Origin: an uncultured Opitutaceae bacterium
GTDB taxonomy: Bacteria; Verrucomicrobiota; Verrucomicrobiia; Opitutales; Opitutaceae
Direction: 5' to 3'
Length of the DNA: 64,000 bases
NCBI GenBank assembly: GCA_903929355.1
Contig: CAIYUN010000062.1
Location: forward strand, 1 to 64,000
Of the stretch, positions 27,244-39,886 are shown in pieces (the first letter of the stretch is position 1; each line of letters starts with the position of its first letter). The translations under genes and the position numbers were made by a program. The notes below the pieces were generated by a model. The model searched no databases, was not told the origin of the DNA, and was given only the letters and a program-made list of their open reading frames with translations.

Positions 27244-27350
27244 GAAGAGGATTTAACGCGAAGACGCTGGGACGCAGAGGCGCCAAGCCCAATATTCGCC
27301 TCTGCGTCTTCGCGCCTTTGCGGCTTTGCGTTGATGGATTGATGGGCGGT
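27244..27350 (+). repeat. ~100-bp imperfect palindromic repeat, copy 1
   Basis: The core runs from TTTAACGCGAAGACGCTG and ACGCAGAGGCG to CGCCTCTGCGTCTTCGCG, CTTTGCG and GTTGATGGATTGATGGGCGG. Left and right halves are complementary, giving a long hairpin. Highly similar copies lie at 39905-40002 and 53567-53675, and a fragment of the left arm in reverse orientation at about 57561-57590. It occupies the 421-bp gap before the DUF2059 gene; the rest of that gap shows nothing else recognisable. Confidence 0.88.
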
Positions 27351-28552: not shown

Positions 28553-29350
28553 TCAGGCTTGGATCATGACCGGGTCCTGCGGGGGTGTGCCCCGGGCTTG
28601 ATCCATGGCAGTGACAATCGCTTCGTCGAACTGAGCCAGGGGGATGGTGCGGTGCGTGAGGTGGTGTTCGAATTCCGCCCACGATTGGTCCTCGTCGAGC
28701 AATCCGTCTGGCGTCAGAACATGGCTGAACCTTTTGTTCCTGGCGTGGTCGGTCCCGAACAGGCGGAGCGACACCACATCGTGGATCAGGCGGTTGGGAT
28801 ACAGGTTGATTTTGACGACCCGGTGGTCGTGGCCGGCCCGGGCCAGTGCGGCCATCGTATTCACCGCCGCGTGGGCCATGAAATCATGGAGCCGGTCGTT
28901 CCCCACCATCGCCTCCAGCCGGCCCCAGACATGATAGCCCCGACCACTCGCGATGACGAGGGGTTCGCACCCCAGTTCGGTCAGGCGGTCGCGGAGTGCG
29001 CCGATGGCACAAGCCATCGCCGGTGTCACCTCCGTGTTATTGGTCTTGTGGTTGTTGTCGAGGTTGAGGCAGAACACGTTGTTGGCCGCGCCCCCGAAGT
29101 AGAGGCATACGTTGCACTGCTTTTGGACATGGGCATGGAGCAACTCGTCCATCCGGCGCTCCGGGAGGTGCCCCAGCTTGTATTTGTGCAGCAGGCCGGA
29201 AAGCGTCAGCTCCCCATATTCGAGGGTCGTGCCGTCGTCGCCGAGGAGCGCCTCCAGAAATTCGAAACCGTGCCCGTGGGTTTCAACCTTGGCCCGGTCG
29301 TGCGGCAGCCCGCCATGGAAGGCTTTGAGCAGTTTTACCCTTGGATCCAT
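28553..29350 (-). CDS. Putative archaeo-eukaryotic primase (AEP)-like protein
   Basis: The 265-residue protein is not a family I can name with certainty. Its central part has the order of AEP-primase motifs: V-F-C-L-N-L-D-N-N (93-100; the usual D-x-D is N96-x-D98), I-A-S-G-R-G-Y-H-V-W (133-142; S-x-G-x-x-H box with His140) and H-D-V-V-S-L-R-L-F-G-T with a following Lys (190-206), resembling the third motif around R-x-P-G-s and Lys. The N-terminal 80 residues are helical and contain a short C-N-V-C. The first catalytic Asp is replaced by Asn, so it may be inactive or bind nucleotides only. It overlaps the preceding HAD gene by 16 bp and ends the six-gene glycosyltransferase operon. Confidence 0.5.
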   Translation of the reverse strand: MDPRVKLLKAFHGGLPHDRAKVETHGHGFEFLEALLGDDGTTLEYGELTLSGLLHKYKLGHLPERRMDELLHAHVQKQCNVCLYFGGAANNVFCLNLDNNHKTNNTEVTPAMACAIGALRDRLTELGCEPLVIASGRGYHVWGRLEAMVGNDRLHDFMAHAAVNTMAALARAGHDHRVVKINLYPNRLIHDVVSLRLFGTDHARNKRFSHVLTPDGLLDEDQSWAEFEHHLTHRTIPLAQFDEAIVTAMDQARGTPPQDPVMIQA

Positions 29351-29907
29351 GGCGTGATTTCCCCGAACGTGCGGAATCCCCGGGCGCCTTCCGCGGCCAG
29401 CCCCTGATGTTTCGCCATGATGGGATAATACACGTTCACCCCGTGTTTCCCTCCGTGGACGATGTTGAAGGGATCGTCGTCCACCAGATGTTTGATCTGC
29501 CACGACCGGCAGAACACAATTTTGTTTCCGGCCATGAACAGGTGGTCAAAGGGGATGTTGTTTTCGTCGAGCCATTGGCGGGTGACAGCCCCGGCGCGCC
29601 GCAGATCGCGGTAGGTGCAGATCACAATCCGCCAGCCCTGGTGTTTCAGCTCGCGCACGAAACTCACGCCGTCGGGACGCGCCGCCGCGCGCCGGTAACA
29701 CTGCTGGTGGATCCGGGCCTTGAAGTAGGTGAACTCGGTGCTGAGCAGGGCGCTCTCCTCCCTCGCCTGGCCGCGCACGCGCGTCAGGTATTCCGCGAAG
29801 ACCTCCGCCGACAGGCCTGACTCCTCGTCGTGATCAAAGACGGCTGATTGCAGGGTTTCCCCGAAGTTGTTCAGGGTGTCATCCAGATCGATGGCGATGG
29901 TGCGCAT
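29335..29907 (-). CDS. HAD-family 5'(3')-nucleotidase-like phosphatase
   Basis: The 190-residue protein has HAD motif I A-I-D-L-D-D-T-L (5-12), motif II V-I-C-T-Y-R-D, a conserved Lys in the G-N-K-I-V segment and motif IV V-D-D-D-P-F-N. This pattern fits the NT5C-type 5'(3')-deoxyribonucleotidases and related HAD phosphatases. The cap is a short helical bundle (about 30-85). It lies 15 bp after the third TPR-glycosyltransferase and overlaps the next gene by 16 bp, so it is translated with both. Substrate could be a nucleotide or a sugar phosphate; the pairing with a primase-like protein favours a nucleotide, the operon context a sugar nucleotide. Confidence 0.78.
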   Translation of the reverse strand: MRTIAIDLDDTLNNFGETLQSAVFDHDEESGLSAEVFAEYLTRVRGQAREESALLSTEFTYFKARIHQQCYRRAAARPDGVSFVRELKHQGWRIVICTYRDLRRAGAVTRQWLDENNIPFDHLFMAGNKIVFCRSWQIKHLVDDDPFNIVHGGKHGVNVYYPIMAKHQGLAAEGARGFRTFGEITPWIQG

Positions 29908-29922
29908 GGGATCAGGCCGTTT

Positions 29923-31575
29923 TTAGCCCGCGTGCTGGTGGCAGAGGGTGAGCAAGGCTGACTCCAGGTTGCGGGTGAACCGGGTGGGCTGGCCGAGCGG
30001 GCTGTCCAGCAGACGCGAACGCAGGGACGCACGCAGCGCGGCAAGCCGGGTCGGGTCGGCGGCGAGCTCGGCGGCGATGCGGCCGTATTCCGCCGGGGTG
30101 GTCGCGACCAGCTCCGGCAATCCGAGGCAGGAGAGCAGGCTGGTCCCGACCCGCGACGCATGGGTCCGCCCGGCGAGGGTGATGACGGGCACACCCATCA
30201 GCAGGGCTTCGCAGGTGGTGGTGGTGCCGTTGTAAGGGAACGGATCAAATGCGAGGTCGCACTCCTGATACAGCTCAAGATGCCGGCGCATGGGCAGGGG
30301 CTCGCCGTTGAAGTGGATGCGGTCCGGGGCGATGCCGTCGCTGGCGAACCGTGCCCGCATCCCCGCCTGGGTCGCCGGGTCGCCGGCGCCGGGTGACTTC
30401 AGCAGCAGGCGGGAGCCGGGATGTTGTCCCAGGATTTGGGCCCACAGGGCGATGGTGGAGGGCGAGAGCTTTGCGAGGTTGTTGAAACTGCAGTAGGTGA
30501 AGGGACGCCCGGCCGTCGGAGCCGGGCCCACCGGCGGACAATCGGGGGGTGGCTGGTAGCAACAGAAGACGTCGGGCAGACGCAGCAGGGTTTCGGGGCC
30601 GTGGCGGCAGTCCTCGCCGGTGGGAAGGCAGGTGGCGTCCGTGATGCGGTAATCCATCGCGGTCATGCCGGTGGTGTTCGGATAGCCCAGCCACGTCAGC
30701 TGGATCGGCGCCGGCTGGCGGGCAAAGACCAGCAGCCGGTTGCGCGCCGTGTGGCCCGCCAGGTCCACGAGTATGTCGATGCCGTCCGACCGGACCTGCG
30801 CCGCGACCGCGTCGTCGCCGAGTCCGGCGATGTCCCGCCAGTGCTCAGCCAGTACGCGCAGGCGGCCGGTGACGGTGTCGGCCCCGAGGCCGTTATCGTA
30901 GCAGAACACCTCGAACCGGTCGCGGTCGTGCGCCGCCAGAACCGGGGCGAAAAAGAAGGCGACGGAATGCTGGCGGAAATCAGGCGAGACATACCCGATT
31001 CGCACCCGGCGGCCGGTCAACGGCGGCAGGCGGGGCCGGCGCGCGGGCCGGAACCGACGCGCGTGCAGCTCATCCCACCGCCGGTGCCGGTCCACGAGAT
31101 CGGGCGGGGCGAGTTCGTCGGAGTAATTGCCGGCGAGCAGGTAATTGGCGTGGGTCCCGGGCGACGGGTTGCTGGCCAGGGCGGATTGAAAATGCGCCAG
31201 GGCCTCGGCGATCCGGCCCTGCGCGCGGCAGGCCCGGCCCAGATTGTCGTGCGCGGCCGGATACTGTGGGCGGAGCCGCAACGCCTCCTCCAGTTGGACC
31301 CGGGCGTCTGCAATCCGGCCCTCGCCCAGCAGCGCGCAGCCCAGGATGTTGCGGGCCTCGGGCATCGTGGGCGCGAGGTGCACCGCGCGCGAAAAAATCT
31401 CGGTCGCACGCCCGGCGTGGTTGAGCTCGAGGTGCGTCACCCCGAGATTGAGCAAAATGGTCGGGTTCGTCGCCTCGAGCCGCGCGGCGGTTTCCAGGTG
31501 CGGGAGCGCCTCGGCCGTGCGGCCTTGACGGCGCAGGCGGTTGCCAAGCTGGTGCTGGGTCTCGGCGGTGGTCAT
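29923..31575 (-). CDS. TPR-SPINDLY/OGT-like glycosyltransferase (GT41), paralogue 3
   Basis: The 550-residue protein has four or so N-terminal TPR units (about 1-145, for example N-P-T-I-L-L-N-L-G-V and A-A-H-D-N-L-G-R-A) and a C-terminal GT41 catalytic region. Landmarks are Y-V-S-P-D-F-R-Q-H-S-V, I-L-V-D-L-A-G-H-T-A-R-N-R, L-G-Y-P-N-T-T-G, F-N-N-L-A-K-L-S, L-L-L-K-S and F-P-Y-N-G-T-T-T-T-C-E-A-L. GT41 enzymes add GlcNAc or fucose to Ser/Thr of proteins. Its start codon overlaps the stop of the preceding paralogue as ATGA. It is the shortest of three tandem paralogues, mainly through fewer TPRs. Donor sugar and targets are unknown. Confidence 0.9.
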   Translation of the reverse strand: MTTAETQHQLGNRLRRQGRTAEALPHLETAARLEATNPTILLNLGVTHLELNHAGRATEIFSRAVHLAPTMPEARNILGCALLGEGRIADARVQLEEALRLRPQYPAAHDNLGRACRAQGRIAEALAHFQSALASNPSPGTHANYLLAGNYSDELAPPDLVDRHRRWDELHARRFRPARRPRLPPLTGRRVRIGYVSPDFRQHSVAFFFAPVLAAHDRDRFEVFCYDNGLGADTVTGRLRVLAEHWRDIAGLGDDAVAAQVRSDGIDILVDLAGHTARNRLLVFARQPAPIQLTWLGYPNTTGMTAMDYRITDATCLPTGEDCRHGPETLLRLPDVFCCYQPPPDCPPVGPAPTAGRPFTYCSFNNLAKLSPSTIALWAQILGQHPGSRLLLKSPGAGDPATQAGMRARFASDGIAPDRIHFNGEPLPMRRHLELYQECDLAFDPFPYNGTTTTCEALLMGVPVITLAGRTHASRVGTSLLSCLGLPELVATTPAEYGRIAAELAADPTRLAALRASLRSRLLDSPLGQPTRFTRNLESALLTLCHQHAG

Positions 31576-33581
31576 GATTGGCAGGTTGCGGCCCAGCAGG
31601 CCTGGACGGCCTCGCCAAAGCGGCGCGATTGGGCGGGATGATCCAGCAGCGGGCCGGCCTGCACCTCGGCCCGCAGGCTGGCGTTCACGCTGGCCAGCCG
31701 GGCCCGGTCGCCCGCCAGCCCGGCGGCGATGCGGGTGTAGTCGGCGTCGGTGGTTGCGATCCACTCGGGGTGGCCGGCCGCCGTCAGCAGCGAGACTCCG
31801 ACTCGGTTGCGATGCTCGCGTCCCGCCAGCGTCACCACCGGCCGTCCCATCCAGAGCGCCTCACAGGTCGTGGTGGTGCCGTGGTAGGGAAAGGGATCCA
31901 GCGCGATGTCCATCAGCCGGTAAAGCTCGAGATGGCCCGCGGTGCCGGGAGTGCGGCCGGCCAGCCCGATCCGCGCCGGGGCCAGGCCGGCGGCGACACA
32001 GCGTTGGCGGAAAGCTTCCTGGCGCGTGGCGGAGTCGAGCCCGTGGCCTTTGAGGAGCAGCCGGGCCCCCGGCACCGCCGCGAGCACGGCGGCCCAGCGG
32101 CGCAGGGTCCCGTCGGACACCTTGGCGGGGTTGTTGAACGACCCGAAGGTCACGGCCCCGTCCGCCCGGGACAGGCAGGGTGGAGGTGCGACGGGCGGCG
32201 CGGCTTCGGGCGGCTGCCAGGCCCAGGCGGTCGGGGCGAACCGCACCAGCCGTTCCGTGCAGAGGGCATCGGTCAGGCCCGCCGGATCGGCGTGGGCGTC
32301 GGTGAAACGGAAGTCCATCGCCGCCAGGCCGGTGGTGTTGGGATAACCCAGGTAGGTGATCTGAACCGGGGCCAGCCGCCGTGCATAGAGCGGAAGCCGG
32401 TTGATGCCCGTGTGGCCCGCGAGATCCACGAGCACGTCGGGCGCGTCGGCGCGGATCGCCGCCTCGACCACCGGCGCCGGCTGTCCCGCAAAATGACGCC
32501 AGCGGGTCGCATGAGTCCGCAACCGTTCGCTCACTCCGTCCATTAGGGGATGGTCGTGATACAGCCAGACCTCGAGCCGGGTGCGGTCGAGGTGCGTCAA
32601 CAGCGGCTCCAGGAACGTCGCCACGGAATGTTGGCGTAGATCGGGCGAAAGAAAGGCGACCCGCAGGATCGATTTTGGATTTCGGATTTTGGAATTTGGA
32701 ATGGGCGGTGGAGCGGACGGCAGATTGGCAGGCGGTGGCACCGGAATCGGCGTGTGGGCGCGGCCGTAGGCGTCGTGCGCCTCCTTGAGTTCGGTGGCGG
32801 AAACCTCCTCCAGATAGTTCAGACACAACAGGCGCGCGCTGCCGGCCTCGGCACAGTCAGGGTGATCGGCCAGCACCGCCCCATACTCCGCGATCGCCTC
32901 CCGCAGCCGGCAGGCCTCCTGCAGGGCCAGGGCCCGGCCGAGCCGCGCACCCGCCAGCCCGGGATCAAGCGCCAGGGCGCGGTCGAGCGCCGCGAGCGCC
33001 TCCTCCGCCTGATGCAATGTGGCGAGGGCGATGCCAAGATTCTTCCAGCCGGCGGCGTGTCCGGGCCAGCGCTGGGTGGTTTCCCGCAGCCACGGCAGGG
33101 CGACACCAAAGCCCTCGGCCTCAGCCAGGAGCGCGCCGACCCGCTCGTGCGGCCCAGGTTCGCCGGGCCGGAGGCGCACGGCCTGACGGGCCGCTGCAAT
33201 CGCCTCCCCCGGCTCACCCCGGCGGTGATGGACAAATGACAGATGTTCCCAGGCCTCGCCGAGGGCGGGATCCAACTCCAGCGCCCGCCGGAGGCTGGCG
33301 GCCGCAGCCTCAAGTGCACCGAGGGCCAGCTGCGCCGCCCCGAGGCGGAAGGCGCACAGCGCCGAGCGCGGGGCCAGCGTCAGGGCCCGGGAGAGCAGGG
33401 TCGCCGCCTCGTCATGGTGACCAAGCTGGTGGGCGGCGAGCCCGCCCAGATGCCAGGCGTCGAAGGCTTGCGGCGAGCTGCGCCGGACTTGGGCGTAGAT
33501 TTTGTACGCAGGTTCGAAGCGGCCGGCCTGGTGGTGGGTCACCGCCGCCTGGAGTTGCAGCCTGGGATTAGGTGGTCGCAT
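31572..33581 (-). CDS. TPR-SPINDLY/OGT-like glycosyltransferase (GT41), paralogue 2
   Basis: The 669-residue protein has about eight TPR units (residues 8-275) and the GT41 catalytic region (about 310-665) with F-L-S-P-D-L-R-Q-H-S-V, V-L-V-D-L-A-G-H-T-G-I-N-R, L-G-Y-P-N-T-T-G, S-F-N-N-P-A-K-V-S, L-L-L-K-G-H-G and F-P-Y-H-G-T-T-T-T-C-E-A-L. The linker between the two parts contains residues P-N-S-K-I-R-N-P-K-S encoded by an AT-rich heptamer repeat (32670-32704) that has no counterpart in the two paralogues. It overlaps the upstream paralogue by 14 bp and the downstream one by 4 bp, so translation is coupled. The protein is probably a protein O-glycosyltransferase. Confidence 0.9.
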   Translation of the reverse strand: MRPPNPRLQLQAAVTHHQAGRFEPAYKIYAQVRRSSPQAFDAWHLGGLAAHQLGHHDEAATLLSRALTLAPRSALCAFRLGAAQLALGALEAAAASLRRALELDPALGEAWEHLSFVHHRRGEPGEAIAAARQAVRLRPGEPGPHERVGALLAEAEGFGVALPWLRETTQRWPGHAAGWKNLGIALATLHQAEEALAALDRALALDPGLAGARLGRALALQEACRLREAIAEYGAVLADHPDCAEAGSARLLCLNYLEEVSATELKEAHDAYGRAHTPIPVPPPANLPSAPPPIPNSKIRNPKSILRVAFLSPDLRQHSVATFLEPLLTHLDRTRLEVWLYHDHPLMDGVSERLRTHATRWRHFAGQPAPVVEAAIRADAPDVLVDLAGHTGINRLPLYARRLAPVQITYLGYPNTTGLAAMDFRFTDAHADPAGLTDALCTERLVRFAPTAWAWQPPEAAPPVAPPPCLSRADGAVTFGSFNNPAKVSDGTLRRWAAVLAAVPGARLLLKGHGLDSATRQEAFRQRCVAAGLAPARIGLAGRTPGTAGHLELYRLMDIALDPFPYHGTTTTCEALWMGRPVVTLAGREHRNRVGVSLLTAAGHPEWIATTDADYTRIAAGLAGDRARLASVNASLRAEVQAGPLLDHPAQSRRFGEAVQACWAATCQS
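32670..32704 (-). repeat. Heptanucleotide tandem repeat (GGATTTT family) inside a GT41 gene
   Basis: Five 7-bp units (variants of GGATTTT, GGATTTC, GGAATTT) lie inside the coding sequence at the TPR-to-GT41 linker. On the coding strand the unit is AAAATCC, the same as the repeat at 43381-43412 in a different gene. Local composition is far more AT-rich than the gene around it. Confidence 0.88.
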
Positions 33582-35430
33582 GGGCGGACTCCTCCCAACA
33601 TTGGCGCAACGCGGCGGCGAGCCGCCGACCCTGCCCGACATGGTCCAGCAACGGCGACGCTTTGAGCGCGGCGCGCAGACTGCGGCAGCGGGACGCGAGC
33701 GCTTCCCGATCGGCCGCCAAACCAGTCGCAATCCGCACATAGTCATCGGCGGTGGCGGCGATGCAGTCGGACTGGCCGGCGGCAGTGAGCAGGGAGACGC
33801 CGACGCGGTTCGCATGGCGGTCGCCGGCCAGCGAGACCACCGGCCGCCCCATCCACAACGCCTCGCAGGTGGTGGTGGTGCCGTGATAGGGCAGGGGGTC
33901 GAGGGCGATGTCCACCCCATGGTAAGAGGCCAGATGGTTGGCCAGGCCGGCGACGGTGGGGGTGAGGACGATGCGCTCCCCCGGTATTCCTGCGAGCTGG
34001 GCCTCGGCCAGCAATCGCCCGGGTTCGGGCGTGTGGCCCTTGATGAGCAGGCGCGAGCCCGGTGTCGCCGCCAGCACGCGAGCCCAGAGGCTCAGGGTGG
34101 CGGGGGAGAGTTTGTTGAGATTGTTGAACGAGCCGAAGGTGATCCCGGGCCGGGACGGATGTGCGGCGGGAGGCAGGGTGACCTCGGGCGCTTGCTCCGG
34201 CGGTTGGTAGCACCAGGCGGTCGGCGCGAAACGCACCAGTTTCTCGGTGTGCAGCGCATCGGTGTCGCCGGGCGGGTCGGCCCATGCGTCGGTCAGCCGG
34301 TAGTCCATGGCGGTCAGTCCGGTGGTGTCGGGATAGCCGAGATAGCTGACCTGCACCGGCGCCAGCCGGCGGGCCAGCAGGGCCATGCGGTTGAAACCGG
34401 TGTGCCCGGCCAGATCCACCAGGATGTCGGGGGCGTCGGTGAGCACCCGGGCCTCCACCAGCGCGTCGGGCTGGCCCACGAAGTTCCGCCACAATGCCGC
34501 GCGAGCCTTCAGTCGTAAGCTCGTGGCATCCTGGGTGAAATGATCGTGATAGAGCACGAGCTCGAACTCCGCCGGATCCAGCTGCGCGAGCAACGGTTCG
34601 AAGAAGAACGCGACGGAGTGGGTGCGAAAGTCCGGCGAGAACCAGGCCACCCGCAACGGGCGCGCGGTCCCGGCCCGGCGGGGCCGCGCGCGGGGTGCGG
34701 CGGGGGCGACCGCGCGGCCATAGGCGGCATGCTCGGCGGCGAGCCGTTCGCGCGGGAGCCCGTCGACATAATGGAGCAGCAGGAGCCGGAAGCTGCGCGC
34801 CTCATGTTCGGCGGGATCGGCGGCGATGACCGCCTCGAAATCGGCGAGCGCCTCCGGGAGCCGGCGGCAGGCGTAAAGGGCCTGGGCGCGGGCGCTGCGG
34901 GCCTTGAGGTGTTGCGGGGCGACGGCGAGGGCGTGGTTCTGGGCGTCGAGTGCCGCCTCGGCCTGCCCGGTCGCCAGCAGCGCCGAGCCCAGGCTGCTCC
35001 ACGCGTGCGCGTCCCCGGGCCGCGCCGCCACGCTCTGGCGCAGTGTGGCGATTCCCTCGTCGGTCCGGCCGTTCACCAGCAGGAATGATCCGAGATTGCA
35101 CAGGGCTTCGGCGTTGCCGGGGTCCAGGCGCACGGCCGCACGCAACTGCTCCTCGGCGCTATCCGGCCGGCCGAGCCGGGCGAGGGCCAGGCCGAGGCAC
35201 ATGCGGGTGGCACCGGATTTTGGCTGCTGGCGCGCGGCCAGATTCAGCCATTCCACGGCCTCCGCCGGCTGGTTGAGCTGGAACAGCGCCGCGCCGCCGA
35301 TGTGCAGCACCCGGTAGTCGCGGGGTGCCACCGACCGCAGCCGACGGTAGAGGGTCACCGCCTGCGTGAGACGGCCGGCCTGATGGTGGGCGTAGGCGGC
35401 CTCAAAACCGTTGGCGGGGGGATGGCGCAT
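33568..35430 (-). CDS. TPR-SPINDLY/OGT-like glycosyltransferase (GT41), paralogue 1
   Basis: The 620-residue protein has about six to seven TPR units (residues 8-225) and a GT41 region (about 265-615) with F-S-P-D-F-R-T-H-S-V-A-F-F-F, I-L-V-D-L-A-G-H-T-G-F-N-R, L-G-Y-P-D-T-T-G, S-F-N-N-L-N-K-L-S, L-L-I-K-G-H-T and L-P-Y-H-G-T-T-T-T-C-E-A-L-W-M-G. The linker is Arg/Pro/Ala-rich. It starts 9 bp after a glycosyltransferase-like gene and is followed by two paralogues with overlapping ends. High similarity of the three catalytic parts points to tandem duplication and specialisation by their different TPR arrays. Confidence 0.91.
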   Translation of the reverse strand: MRHPPANGFEAAYAHHQAGRLTQAVTLYRRLRSVAPRDYRVLHIGGAALFQLNQPAEAVEWLNLAARQQPKSGATRMCLGLALARLGRPDSAEEQLRAAVRLDPGNAEALCNLGSFLLVNGRTDEGIATLRQSVAARPGDAHAWSSLGSALLATGQAEAALDAQNHALAVAPQHLKARSARAQALYACRRLPEALADFEAVIAADPAEHEARSFRLLLLHYVDGLPRERLAAEHAAYGRAVAPAAPRARPRRAGTARPLRVAWFSPDFRTHSVAFFFEPLLAQLDPAEFELVLYHDHFTQDATSLRLKARAALWRNFVGQPDALVEARVLTDAPDILVDLAGHTGFNRMALLARRLAPVQVSYLGYPDTTGLTAMDYRLTDAWADPPGDTDALHTEKLVRFAPTAWCYQPPEQAPEVTLPPAAHPSRPGITFGSFNNLNKLSPATLSLWARVLAATPGSRLLIKGHTPEPGRLLAEAQLAGIPGERIVLTPTVAGLANHLASYHGVDIALDPLPYHGTTTTCEALWMGRPVVSLAGDRHANRVGVSLLTAAGQSDCIAATADDYVRIATGLAADREALASRCRSLRAALKASPLLDHVGQGRRLAAALRQCWEESAHATT

Positions 35431-35439
35431 GGGGATGAT

Positions 35440-36549
35440 TCAAACGTCGCAGGCCACCGCGACGGTCTGGGCCTGGGCGGCGGCGATCGCCCCGGCGACG
35501 ACCACCCCGATGGTCTCATGGGTGTTGAAGTGCGCGTGAATCCGCCGGCGGGCGGCCGGCGGCAGCGCCAGTGCCCGTTCGCAGGCTTCCGCGAGCGCGG
35601 CGAGGTCCCCATGGGGATAGCGCATGATCAGCCCGGTCCGGGCCAGCCCGTCGAGTCGGTCTCCCGTGCGGGAATTCTCCGCCACCGGCACCAGGCCGAG
35701 GCAGCCGGCCCAGAACGGCCGGTCGGTGTGGGTGCGGCCCATGGCCGGGGTCGCAAATTTTCGCCCTTCCGGGCAGAAGGCAACCTGGTGCCGGTTCAGG
35801 CCGCCGCGGGCCGTCACATCAACCGAATGATCGGTGCTCGCGACAAACCGGTCCTTGAAGCGGGCCCGCAGAAAGGCGATCTGACGCTCCCGATGGGGCG
35901 TGAGACCAAGTTGCGAGCCAAGAAAATAGATACTGGTGTCGGGTGCCTCATGGCAGGGATGGGAAAAGGGGACGATGTTGGCCACCCAACTGCGGTGGAT
36001 CGTGGTGCAATCGACCGGCAGCAGGGAGGCGCCAAGAGGTTCCAGCGGCTGCTCATCGTGGATGAGCACGTCGAGGTGCGGGGCCAGGGCACGGAAACCC
36101 GGCATGGTGCGGCTGGCCTCGTCATAGGCGTAGAATAACACCCGGCCGCCGTTCCTCCGGGTGAAGGCGGCGACTTTGGCCGCCACCCCGGCGGGCAGTT
36201 CGCCCGGCTGCTGGCCGGTGAAGACCAGCCACCAGGTTTCGTCGGCGGGTCGGCTGGAAAAACTTCCCACAAAATCGCCGAGGCCGGCCGCCCCCAGCAC
36301 CTGCGCGGGCCGAAATTCCACGCCGGGATGGCTTAGTTCCGCGAGGCAACGCGCATTCTCCCCCTGCCAGTCGGAGTCGAGCCGCGCCATGCGCAACAGG
36401 CGCGGATCAGAGACCTGACCCAGCCGGTGGCTCAGGTCGGTTTCCGCGAGGCCGGCGAGGTGGCTTTCGGCCGAGGTCGGCCGACCCGCCCATGGACAGT
36501 AAATCCAAAGTCGGACCGCGGATTTGGGGTCGGGGTCGGACCAGCTCAT
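35440..36549 (-). CDS. Glycosyltransferase-like protein, first gene of the GT41 operon
   Basis: The 369-residue protein is not clearly assignable. A central run shows a GT-B-like order: W-W-L-V-F-T-G-Q-Q-P-G-E-L-P, V-L-F-Y-A-Y-D-E-A-S-R, V-L-I-H-D-E-Q, then a second half with I-Y-F-L-G-S-Q-L-G-L-T, Q-V-A-F-C-P-E-G-R-K-F-A-T-P, F-W-A-G-C-L-G-L-V-P-V and a C-terminal H-A-H-F-N-T-H-E-T-I-G. The second half resembles the donor-binding part of exostosin/CgeB-type glycosyltransferases, where a Pro-Glu-Gly/Cys-Leu-Pro-Val pattern is common. There is no signal peptide. A weak GGAAG precedes the ATG. Position as the leading gene 9 bp before paralogue 1 supports a glycan-transfer role. Confidence 0.55.
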   Translation of the reverse strand: MSWSDPDPKSAVRLWIYCPWAGRPTSAESHLAGLAETDLSHRLGQVSDPRLLRMARLDSDWQGENARCLAELSHPGVEFRPAQVLGAAGLGDFVGSFSSRPADETWWLVFTGQQPGELPAGVAAKVAAFTRRNGGRVLFYAYDEASRTMPGFRALAPHLDVLIHDEQPLEPLGASLLPVDCTTIHRSWVANIVPFSHPCHEAPDTSIYFLGSQLGLTPHRERQIAFLRARFKDRFVASTDHSVDVTARGGLNRHQVAFCPEGRKFATPAMGRTHTDRPFWAGCLGLVPVAENSRTGDRLDGLARTGLIMRYPHGDLAALAEACERALALPPAARRRIHAHFNTHETIGVVVAGAIAAAQAQTVAVACDV

Positions 36550-37018: not shown

Positions 37019-37957
37019 GTGCAATCATCTTCCGCCCCCGATCTCTTGCCACGCGCCGAAACCGCCGGTGGCCCCTATTCCGACGATGAGATCCGCCGTC
37101 GCATCGAACGCTGCCCCAAACTGGCCTCCCTGCAGAGCATCAACCGCAAACTGGCCGGCTTGGTGGACTCGGAGCAGAGCTACACCACGCAGATCGCGGA
37201 GATCATCCGCCGGGACCCTTCGCTGACCGCCCGCCTGCTGCGGATGGTGAACAGCGTCTATTTCGGCCTGAGCGCCAAGGTCAACAGCATCGAGGAGGCG
37301 GTGCTCTACCTCGGACTGCGGCAGATCCGGGAGCTGTCCATGGCGACGCCAGTGATCGAGGATCTGGAGAAAATTGGCCAGTCCTCGCCGGCCCTCCCTT
37401 GGCGGGAGCTGTGGCGGCACTCGATCGGGACCGCGATCATGACCCGCGAAATCCTCGCGACCACGGATTTGCTGGTCGATGATGACACGGACTACATCAT
37501 CGGCCTGCTGCACAACGTGGGCAAGGTGGTGCTGGCCACGGCCTTTCCGCTGGAGTTTCAGGAAATCTTCGGCCGCGAGCATGAGAGCGCCGAGGCCGTG
37601 TGCGAGGCGGAGCGGGAGTTGGTCGGCTGGGACCATCCCATGATTGGCGGCTATTATTTGGAAAAGCACCGACTCGCGCCGGAGATTGTCGAGGCGGTCC
37701 GGTATCACGCCCAACCCGGGGGTGCGTCGGATTGCGCAGTGTATGCCGCCGCCGTCCAGGTCGCCGACCTGCTGGTCCGGGAGACCGGAATCAGCGGCGG
37801 GTTTGAACTGGTGCCGCCGCTGCCGATTGGCGCGGGTCAGCAATCCGAGGGCTGGCACATTCTGTTTGGAAAAAACGAACGCGAGGAGGCGCTCGCCAAG
37901 GCCGCCCTCGCCAATGCCATGAGCCAGCTGCCCGCGATGCTGAGCGGCATGGTCTGA
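37019..37957 (+). CDS. HDOD-domain signalling protein
   Basis: The 312-residue protein has a central HDOD domain (about 25-235): L-A-S-L-Q-S-I, I-I-R-R-D-P-S-L-T-A-R-L-L-R-M-V-N-S, S-I-E-E-A-V-L-Y-L-G-L and I-I-G-L-L-H-N-V-G-K-V-V-L, then H-P-M-I-G-G-Y-Y-L. HDOD is an HD-related domain lacking full catalytic residues; here L-H-N-V-G replaces the H-D pair, so it is probably non-hydrolytic and signalling. The gene starts with GTG and is followed after 6 bp by a hybrid histidine kinase, so the two form a signalling pair. Confidence 0.9.
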   Translation: MQSSSAPDLLPRAETAGGPYSDDEIRRRIERCPKLASLQSINRKLAGLVDSEQSYTTQIAEIIRRDPSLTARLLRMVNSVYFGLSAKVNSIEEAVLYLGLRQIRELSMATPVIEDLEKIGQSSPALPWRELWRHSIGTAIMTREILATTDLLVDDDTDYIIGLLHNVGKVVLATAFPLEFQEIFGREHESAEAVCEAERELVGWDHPMIGGYYLEKHRLAPEIVEAVRYHAQPGGASDCAVYAAAVQVADLLVRETGISGGFELVPPLPIGAGQQSEGWHILFGKNEREEALAKAALANAMSQLPAMLSGMV

Positions 37958-37963
37958 CCCGCC

Positions 37964-39886
37964 ATGAGCCCCACCCACCCCATTTCACTGGCGACGTTCC
38001 CGCCGGCTGCGGCCGACGCGCTGGAGCCCTGGGCGGGGAGCCTGGAGCTGGCCGTCCTGTTCGATCCCGAGGGGCGGATTCTGGCGGTCAACCGGGCGTT
38101 TGCGCGCAAGTTCGGGCACGCCGAGCCGACCTGGACCGGGCGGGCTTTGCCGTCGCTGCTGCATCCGGATGACGCCGATGACTGGGCCGAATCCATGCCG
38201 CGTCTGCGGCGTCCGCCCTTCCATCTCAGCCGCGAGCACCGCTGGCAGACCGCACAGGGCTGGCGCTGGCTGGCGTGGGAGGAGACGGCCCAGCGCGGTC
38301 CGGCCGGCGAACTGGTGACCGTGCGCGCCATCGGCCGCGATGTGACCCGACACCGGCTCTCCGAGGAGCATTTCCGGAAGATCGCCCAGGCGGTCGAGCA
38401 GGCGCCCGTGTCCATTGTGATGACGACGCCGGGCGGCATGGCCCAGTATGTGAACTCGCGCTTCACCGAAGTGACGGGCTACACACTGGAGGAAATTTTT
38501 GAGCGCGGGATTCCGGTGCTCCGCGAGGGGCACGCCAGCGAGTCCGCCTACCGCCAGTTCTGCGCCGTGGTCGCGGCCGGGCACAAATGGACCGGCGAGC
38601 TGCACACCCGCGGCAAGCACGGCCGCGAGGTCTGGGAGTTCGTCTCCGTCTCTCCGATCCGCAACCATCTTGACGAGATCACCCACCTTCTCTCCCTGCG
38701 GGAGGACATCACCGAGCGCAAAACGCTCGAGGACCAGCTGCGGCAGGCGCAGAAAATGGAGAGCATCGGCACGCTGGCCGGGGGCATCGCGCATGATTTC
38801 AACAACATCATCGCCATCATCCGCGGCTTCACCGAGCTGTCGCTGACCATCGCGCCGTCCGACCCGCGCCTCGTGCGCTACCTCGGCTCGGTCCATGACG
38901 CGGCGTTGCGGGCGTCGGGCTTGGTCGGGCAGATCCTCACTTTCAGCCGCAAAAACGAGGTGGCCTACCGGGCGGTCCGGCTGGACGAGGTCATCAACGA
39001 GCTGGTCGGGATGTTCGCGGAAACCTTCCCGCGCTCGATTGAGCTGCGCAAAAACCTGGACCGGTCCATCGAGGCCTTTTCCCTGGATCCGAACCAAATC
39101 CGCCAGGTCCTGGTCAACCTTTGCGTAAACGCTCGCGACGCGATGCCCGACGGGGGAGTGATCACGATTTCGACCCGCCGGGTGCCCGGCAGCCAGTTGG
39201 TGGCGCTCAAGGCCGACCCGGCACAGGAGTATGCGTGCATCAGCCTGGCCGACAACGGGCCCGGGATGTCGGCCGAGGTGCGCGCGCGGATTTTTGAACC
39301 TTTTTACACCACCAAGCAGGGCACCGGCGGCACCGGCCTGGGGCTCGCCGTGGTCTATGGGGTGGTCACGAACCACCACGGCCTGCTCGACCTGGAGACC
39401 GCGCCGGGCAAGGGGGCGACCTTTCATATTTATCTGCCGGTGAAAACCCGGCAGGACGACCTGCCGGCCCTTTATGGCCATGGTCGCGAGGCCCGCCTGT
39501 CGCCGGGGCGCGAGCGCGTACTCATCGTCGAGGACGAGGTGCCGCTCATGGAGCTCTTGGAGACGGTGATGATCAACGCGGGCTACGAGGTCCTGACCGC
39601 CGCCGACGGGGTCGAGGCGGTGGCCTGCCTCAAAAACTACGGCCGCCGGATGGACGCGGTGGTGCTCGATCTGAACATGCCCCGCCTCGGCGGCATTGAG
39701 GTGTTGAAATTTATCCGTCAGCATCATCCCGGGCTGCCGGTTTTGGTGATCAGTGGCCATCTGACGGCGGAGGTGAAGGACGAGCTGCGGGAACTGGGCC
39801 AGAACCACGTGTTGGAAAAACCCTTCGAGCTCTCCGCCCTGGGCGAGATGCTGCGCCAGACGGTCGACTCCCATAAATCCCACTGA
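37964..39886 (+). CDS. PAS-containing hybrid histidine kinase with C-terminal receiver
   Basis: The 640-residue protein has no membrane segment. Two PAS domains (about 25-130 and 140-260, with PAC tail E-D-I-T-E-R-K), an H-box G-G-I-A-H-D-F-N-N, an ATPase with L-V-N-L-C-V-N-A-R-D-A-M and D-N-G-P-G-M, G-T-G-L-G-L-A-V-V and a receiver domain (about 520-635) with V-E-D-E and V-V-L-D-L-N-M-P (phospho-Asp). It is a soluble sensor that would pass phosphate from His to its own Asp. No output domain is present, so a partner must act downstream; the upstream HDOD protein is a candidate. Signal unknown. Confidence 0.94.
   Translation: MSPTHPISLATFPPAAADALEPWAGSLELAVLFDPEGRILAVNRAFARKFGHAEPTWTGRALPSLLHPDDADDWAESMPRLRRPPFHLSREHRWQTAQGWRWLAWEETAQRGPAGELVTVRAIGRDVTRHRLSEEHFRKIAQAVEQAPVSIVMTTPGGMAQYVNSRFTEVTGYTLEEIFERGIPVLREGHASESAYRQFCAVVAAGHKWTGELHTRGKHGREVWEFVSVSPIRNHLDEITHLLSLREDITERKTLEDQLRQAQKMESIGTLAGGIAHDFNNIIAIIRGFTELSLTIAPSDPRLVRYLGSVHDAALRASGLVGQILTFSRKNEVAYRAVRLDEVINELVGMFAETFPRSIELRKNLDRSIEAFSLDPNQIRQVLVNLCVNARDAMPDGGVITISTRRVPGSQLVALKADPAQEYACISLADNGPGMSAEVRARIFEPFYTTKQGTGGTGLGLAVVYGVVTNHHGLLDLETAPGKGATFHIYLPVKTRQDDLPALYGHGREARLSPGRERVLIVEDEVPLMELLETVMINAGYEVLTAADGVEAVACLKNYGRRMDAVVLDLNMPRLGGIEVLKFIRQHHPGLPVLVISGHLTAEVKDELRELGQNHVLEKPFELSALGEMLRQTVDSHKSH

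Follow-up and report, generated by a model that had tools for sequence, protein, structure and literature searches.

Do the six closely packed genes at positions 28553-36549 of a 64,000-nucleotide stretch of DNA from an uncultured Opitutaceae bacterium form one system, or do two units with separate histories lie end to end? The stretch (assembly GCA_903929355.1, contig CAIYUN010000062.1, positions 1 to 64,000), hereafter the window, carries six contiguous open reading frames in this interval, all on the minus strand. An earlier note on the sequence had described six tightly packed genes forming one operon, and its account of the packing was exact for every gap and overlap – in the order of transcription, a 9-nucleotide gap, a 14-nucleotide overlap, an ATGA overlap of 4 nucleotides, a 15-nucleotide gap, and a 16-nucleotide overlap. 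We consider it likely that two independent modules make up the run, one following the other on the same strand, and that the first acts on flagellin. The features, in the order of transcription, are:

35440..36549, minus strand: A369, a GT-B-fold glycosyltransferase without a family model (predicted fold)
33568..35430, minus strand: OGT1, TPR array and GT41 domain (SPINDLY/OGT-like), 620 amino acids; PF13844 at 127.7 bits
31572..33581, minus strand: OGT2, TPR and GT41, 669 amino acids; ATG at 33581, 14-nucleotide overlap with OGT1; PF13844 at 115.0 bits
29923..31575, minus strand: OGT3, TPR and GT41, 550 amino acids; ATGA overlap with OGT2; PF13844 at 207.2 bits
29335..29907, minus strand: HAD-superfamily phosphatase, 190 amino acids; motifs IDLDDT / CT / NKIVFC / VDDD
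28553..29350, minus strand: AEP/Prim-Pol-fold protein, 265 amino acids; motif I N96-L-D98, motif II G-Y-H140 (predicted fold)
29335..29350, minus strand: HAD/AEP overlap of 16 nucleotides, with the AEP start codon inside the last HAD codons

Module 1 is A369-OGT1-OGT2-OGT3 (36549-29923), and module 2 is the HAD–AEP pair (29907-28553).

Gene order in related genomes

A369 is present in 39 of 200 genomes of the family, the source genome included, and 22 A369 loci (stretches of 5 to 20 kb) were fetched from the 38 other genomes. Gene calls in relatives came from a codon-usage script that placed genes on the wrong strand at some GC-rich loci (L006, for example) and overlooked A369 at L038; because of these errors, the tallies of neighbours at the loci rest on tblastn. 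Two loci, L029 from the same genus and L030 from another, carry A369-OGT1-OGT2-OGT3 in the same order and with the same 14- and 4-nucleotide overlaps, and their OGT1 counterparts are 71 and 76% identical to that of the window. Neither AEP nor HAD was found in the whole genomes of L029 and L030, and there was no match to either at any of the 22 other A369 loci. The first four genes of the run thus recur as a unit in L029 and L030, with HAD–AEP missing there, and the proposal that the last two genes belong to the glycosylation system did not gain support.

We observed the same separation from the side of the pair. AEP was found in 11 copies, counting two in one genome (G618), and a HAD gene lies directly upstream in all 11 (with a run of Ns inside one). 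The flanking genes vary from locus to locus, and neither GT41 nor A369 gave a match at the other 10 HAD–AEP loci (5.9 to 19.5 kb each). Given the upstream HAD in every copy, the varied neighbours and the lack of GT41 and A369 at the other loci, we take HAD–AEP to be one separately inherited two-gene unit; of the genomes read, this is the sole one in which it follows OGT3. The earlier note had asked whether the last two genes are linked to GT41 genes elsewhere; within the searched set they are not, which points to chance adjacency, and adjacency is the most likely explanation of the coupling seen here. In this lineage the pair probably became the neighbour of OGT3, and it is perhaps co-transcribed with the glycosyltransferase genes without sharing their function. 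The flank beyond OGT3 is different in L029 and L030, so no empty insertion site can be read there.

A HAD protein paired with a Prim-Pol fold

The pair is sparsely distributed. AEP occurs in 5 of the 200 family genomes (6 of 252 by profile), and HAD occurs in the same 5 and in none of the other 195. Among 387 genomes sampled from the phylum, only the source genome has AEP, and the gene also appears in the Bacillota, in 4 of 73 (order) and 4 of 82 (class) genomes from overlapping sets around an assembly titled Desulfosporosinus. HAD and AEP overlap by 16 nucleotides in 8 of the 11 copies, in both lineages; the other overlaps are 25 nucleotides in G058, 19 in G618a, and, by coordinates, 46 in G618b. 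This fixed overlap, together with the strict co-occurrence, suggests that HAD and AEP form a translationally coupled complex. A tree of the 11 AEP rows has 5 of its 8 inner branches unresolved and leaves the direction of transfer undecided. No description of the pair appeared in the material returned by the literature searches made.

Sequence models point weakly to the AEP assignment (PF24387, E 0.012, below cut-off; in this family-model search the OGT2, OGT3, and AEP queries carried 2 to 10 extra codons 5' of the starts given above). A PDB sequence search with the single protein gave no match, and one with the AEP profile reached LigD (E 0.51) and sorbitol dehydrogenase (E 1.2). Against the CAPP Prim-Pol domain, the structure model (predicted local distance difference test score, pLDDT, of 88) scored Z 22.4 at a root-mean-square deviation (rmsd) of 2.5 over 205 residues, with Prim-PolC (Z 13.3) and LigD (Z 12.8) as the next fold matches. 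The model provides strong evidence for a Prim-Pol fold. The earlier call of a primase-like protein is thus upheld firmly by fold and weakly by sequence.

We next consider whether this protein could polymerise. AEP superfamily proteins are described as sharing the motifs hhhDhD/E, sxH, and hD/E (PMC10345425), and the MpCAPP double mutant D177A+D179A is reported to be inactive (PMC8211822). In our alignment, all 11 AEP copies have N-x-D at motif I in place of D-x-D/E, while motif II is kept, with SGxGxH invariant in all 11; E23 and D98 are the sole invariant acidic residues. Set beside the inactive double mutant of MpCAPP, the N-x-D motif in every copy makes a polymerase unlikely, and the first metal-binding acid has probably been lost. 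Two points weaken this interpretation: the motif III region, in which no acidic residue beyond position 140 is invariant, failed to align with the LigD profile, and hhalign sets N-L-D on D-L-D of LigD only weakly (probability 1.2%, E 0.043). N96 was assigned to the first-Asp position from the pattern and from this weak profile alignment, not from coordinates.

Family support for the HAD protein is also weak (PF00702, E 6e-4, below cut-off). PF06941, the model for the 5'(3')-deoxyribonucleotidase NT5C, gave no match to the window protein at E 0.1 and 17.3 bits for a relative at L069, where the cut-off is 24.8. The window protein matches phrog_415, a polynucleotide kinase, with E 9e-13, and its profile finds 1xpj as the best PDB entry (E 0.004), with a weak match to Pnkp1 (E 0.25). 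Of 9 aligned HAD rows, 6 show the nucleophile motif DLDDT/DIDDT, as does L065 (the L070 row is shortened by its gene call); in the two G618 copies the nucleophile is gone, with E or F replacing the first Asp. The HAD partner appears to be an active phosphatase. One G618 copy (L072:9942-12239) is a 765-amino-acid protein that has an S-adenosylmethionine (SAM) methyltransferase at its N terminus and a degenerate HAD domain at its C terminus, and it overlaps the AEP gene; at the other copy (L071) a methyltransferase gene lies directly behind AEP.

We tentatively propose that HAD and AEP make up a so far undescribed complex of two proteins, present in two distant lineages, where the Prim-Pol fold, its metal site disabled, would serve the HAD phosphatase as a receptor for nucleotides or nucleic-acid ends. 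The AEP partner may bind a nucleotide or nucleic-acid end and present it to the HAD enzyme – a division of labour that we put forward with equal reserve. Distant lineages have thus retained a Prim-Pol fold that lacks the canonical metal motif and is HAD-linked in every copy seen, which raises the question of what role such a domain has if it is not a polymerase.

Somewhat less probable is a nucleic-acid end-healing or repair pair, with HAD as a 3'-phosphatase, as in polynucleotide kinase/phosphatase, and AEP extending ends as in LigD. The phrog_415 match, the weak Pnkp1 match, and an AEP fold near LigD POL and Prim-PolC would fit, but the Asn in motif I of all 11 copies and the scarcity of invariant acidic residues speak against extension, and the HAD nucleophile, too, is missing from both G618 copies. 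LigD Prim-Pol itself was found in 3 of 38 relatives and was not found in the source genome.

We doubt that the pair serves as a small module of phage defence or of a mobile element, as its sporadic occurrence in two lineages among varied neighbours might suggest. PADLOC gave no match for HAD, AEP, or A369, phage, plasmid, and viral collections yielded no confirmed match to the pair (one search returned 61 pattern stretches, 0 confirmed), and no adjoining nuclease or toxin gene was recognised by eye, the neighbours not having been searched systematically. A viral or plasmid origin was rejected for want of a confirmed match in those collections, and none of the repeats flanking HAD–AEP was convincing. 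The tentative complex described above remains our preferred account of the pair, which is worth a study of its own.

Module 1 and its probable link to flagellin

The PF13844 scores of OGT1, OGT2, and OGT3 listed above are well over the curated cut-off of 25 bits, and several TPR models exceed their cut-offs in the N-terminal array of each protein. These TPR arrays differ among the three paralogues, whose GT41 parts have what we take to be a SPINDLY-like sequence pattern. A PADLOC scan of OGT3 (OGT1 and OGT2 were outside that scan) matched TPR models only. GT41 is confined to these genes in the 3.8-Mb assembly, with all 6 matching stretches inside them. The earlier suggestion of a unit dedicated to protein glycosylation, in which three paralogues combine TPR and GT41, is supported.

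A369 has no match among the Pfam, NCBIfam, or PHROGs models. Its structure model (pLDDT 90) finds GtfC as the top Foldseek match (E 1.2e-6) and aligns with Gtf3 in VIA-align with Z 17.0 and rmsd 4.0 over 285 residues, other GT-B enzymes being within 1 Z unit of Gtf3. On this model A369 is a GT-B-fold protein, and its probable role is to extend a glycan or to partner the GT41 proteins. In the same-genus relative, a 1010-amino-acid protein with two glycosyltransferase regions (L029:14290-17322) adjoins A369; in the window it is not next to A369.

The distribution of A369 follows that of flagellin. A flagellin was found in 38 of the 39 genomes with A369 and in 74 of the 161 without it (Fisher p 2e-10, kinship ignored), the identities of flagellin, FliD, and FliS having been established by Pfam on one representative each. 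Among the 22 A369 loci, a GT41 match lies within 150 bp of A369 in 11, a flagellin match falls within the fetched stretch in 10, and one or the other is present in 17; in L030, a flagellin gene is about 12 kb from A369. A protein near A369 and flagellins at L034:5297-6826 presumably resembles a Maf-type flagellin modification protein, to judge from the start of its sequence.

A precedent is available in Caulobacter crescentus, where FlmG, a soluble enzyme that glycosylates flagellins, is described as binding them through its TPR part and as having a GT-B-like C-terminal part (PMC7591256). Our GT41 family search also matches a control genome, Caulobacter vibrioides, a match that we do not equate with FlmG. 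On the co-occurrence of A369 with flagellin, the linkage of the two in relatives, and the FlmG precedent, the best reading of module 1 is that it is probably an FlmG-like machinery for cytoplasmic O-glycosylation of flagellin. Each TPR–GT41 enzyme would recognise flagellin through its own TPR array and attach the first sugar to Ser/Thr, and A369 would add a further sugar or act as a partner before flagellin is exported; the substrate, the sugar donor, and the order of action are those that we infer.

Three observations weigh against a flagellin target. One of the 39 A369 genomes, G016, has no flagellin match. Five of the 22 loci have neither an adjacent GT41 nor a flagellin in the stretch (L032, L040, L042, L067, and L068, the last only 5.9 kb). 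Finally, searches for flagellin, FliD, and FliS gave no match on the 97.7-kb contig that contains the window, so the link to flagellin is drawn from relatives. L067 and L068 belong to G016 and G058, which carry HAD–AEP elsewhere in the genome. The last of the three points, like the three differing TPR arrays, would also suit a broad action of the GT41 proteins on cytoplasmic proteins, comparable to that of eukaryotic OGT, with flagellins as mere neighbours; we regard this as unlikely, given the co-occurrence and linkage of A369 with flagellin in relatives.

Module 1 is thus likely a flagellin-glycosylation unit of a known kind, with a GT-B partner that family models do not cover and that tracks the flagellated members of the family. 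The locus is a bacterial setting in which the action of three GT41 paralogues that differ in their TPR arrays, and are probably directed at flagellin, can be tested. The genes at 37046-39886, divergent from A369, encode an HDOD protein and a histidine kinase of the hybrid type, and HDOD or hybrid histidine kinase matches also lie near A369 in L030, L038, L039, L041, and L067; these proteins may be part of module 1 or its regulators.

One system or two, and known counterparts

Several observations weigh against the independence of the two modules. With a spacing of 15 nucleotides, HAD–AEP is likely on the same transcript as OGT3. At one HAD–AEP locus (L006), flagellin-like genes lie about 6 kb off. 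A369 is found somewhere in 4 of 5 HAD–AEP genomes and in 35 of 195 others (Fisher p 0.005, kinship ignored). As a functional link this last association is weak, and it does not convince us because it involves five genomes, two of them of one genus, with kinship ignored; the sixth HAD–AEP genome (G592) falls outside the test. A promoter and terminator consensus scan that included the OGT3–HAD junction gave counts at the level of shuffled sequence (1 versus 0.8; 5 versus 4.7), which speaks neither for nor against the last two genes having a promoter of their own.

Least probable of the alternatives is a single six-gene system, in which, for example, HAD would clear a nucleotide or sugar-phosphate by-product and AEP would sense a nucleotide: the tight spacing and the 4 of 5 genomes with A369 would favour it, but we rejected it on synteny, the pair being absent beside the same four-gene unit in L029 and L030 and from the 22 other A369 loci, GT41 and A369 being absent from the 10 other HAD–AEP loci, and HAD–AEP recurring in the class of the Desulfosporosinus assembly.

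Beyond the six genes, an inverted repeat at 27257-27322 (26-nucleotide arms, 81% complementary, 14 nucleotides apart) looks like a repeated palindromic intergenic element.

Among known systems, FlmG is the counterpart of module 1. Like OGT1-3, it combines an N-terminal TPR array with a C-terminal transferase, and the modification is thought to come before export (PMC7591256). As described there, FlmG is a single enzyme with a pseudaminic acid donor, whereas the window has three tandem GT41 paralogues and a GT-B partner. The literature searches returned, in the material they covered, no description of flagellin glycosylation in this family and no GT41 flagellin system beyond FlmG. Gtf3 and GtfC, GT-B enzymes of serine-rich adhesin glycosylation, are among the solved folds closest to A369, which differs from them in having about 10% identity and no matching family model.

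For module 2, systems in which the LigD polymerase works with a phosphoesterase or polynucleotide kinase-phosphatase likewise set an AEP-type fold beside a phosphatase-type enzyme; in the window, by contrast, motif I of the AEP protein is altered and no ligase was seen. The phosphatase of the LigD systems presumably has another fold than HAD. The closest structural counterpart is the catalytic domain of CAPP from Marinitoga (PMC8211822), which has the same fold, with the 205 residues aligned to a 213-residue chain, and which shares motif II; the AEP protein of the window is unlike CAPP in its N-x-D motif I and in its HAD partner.

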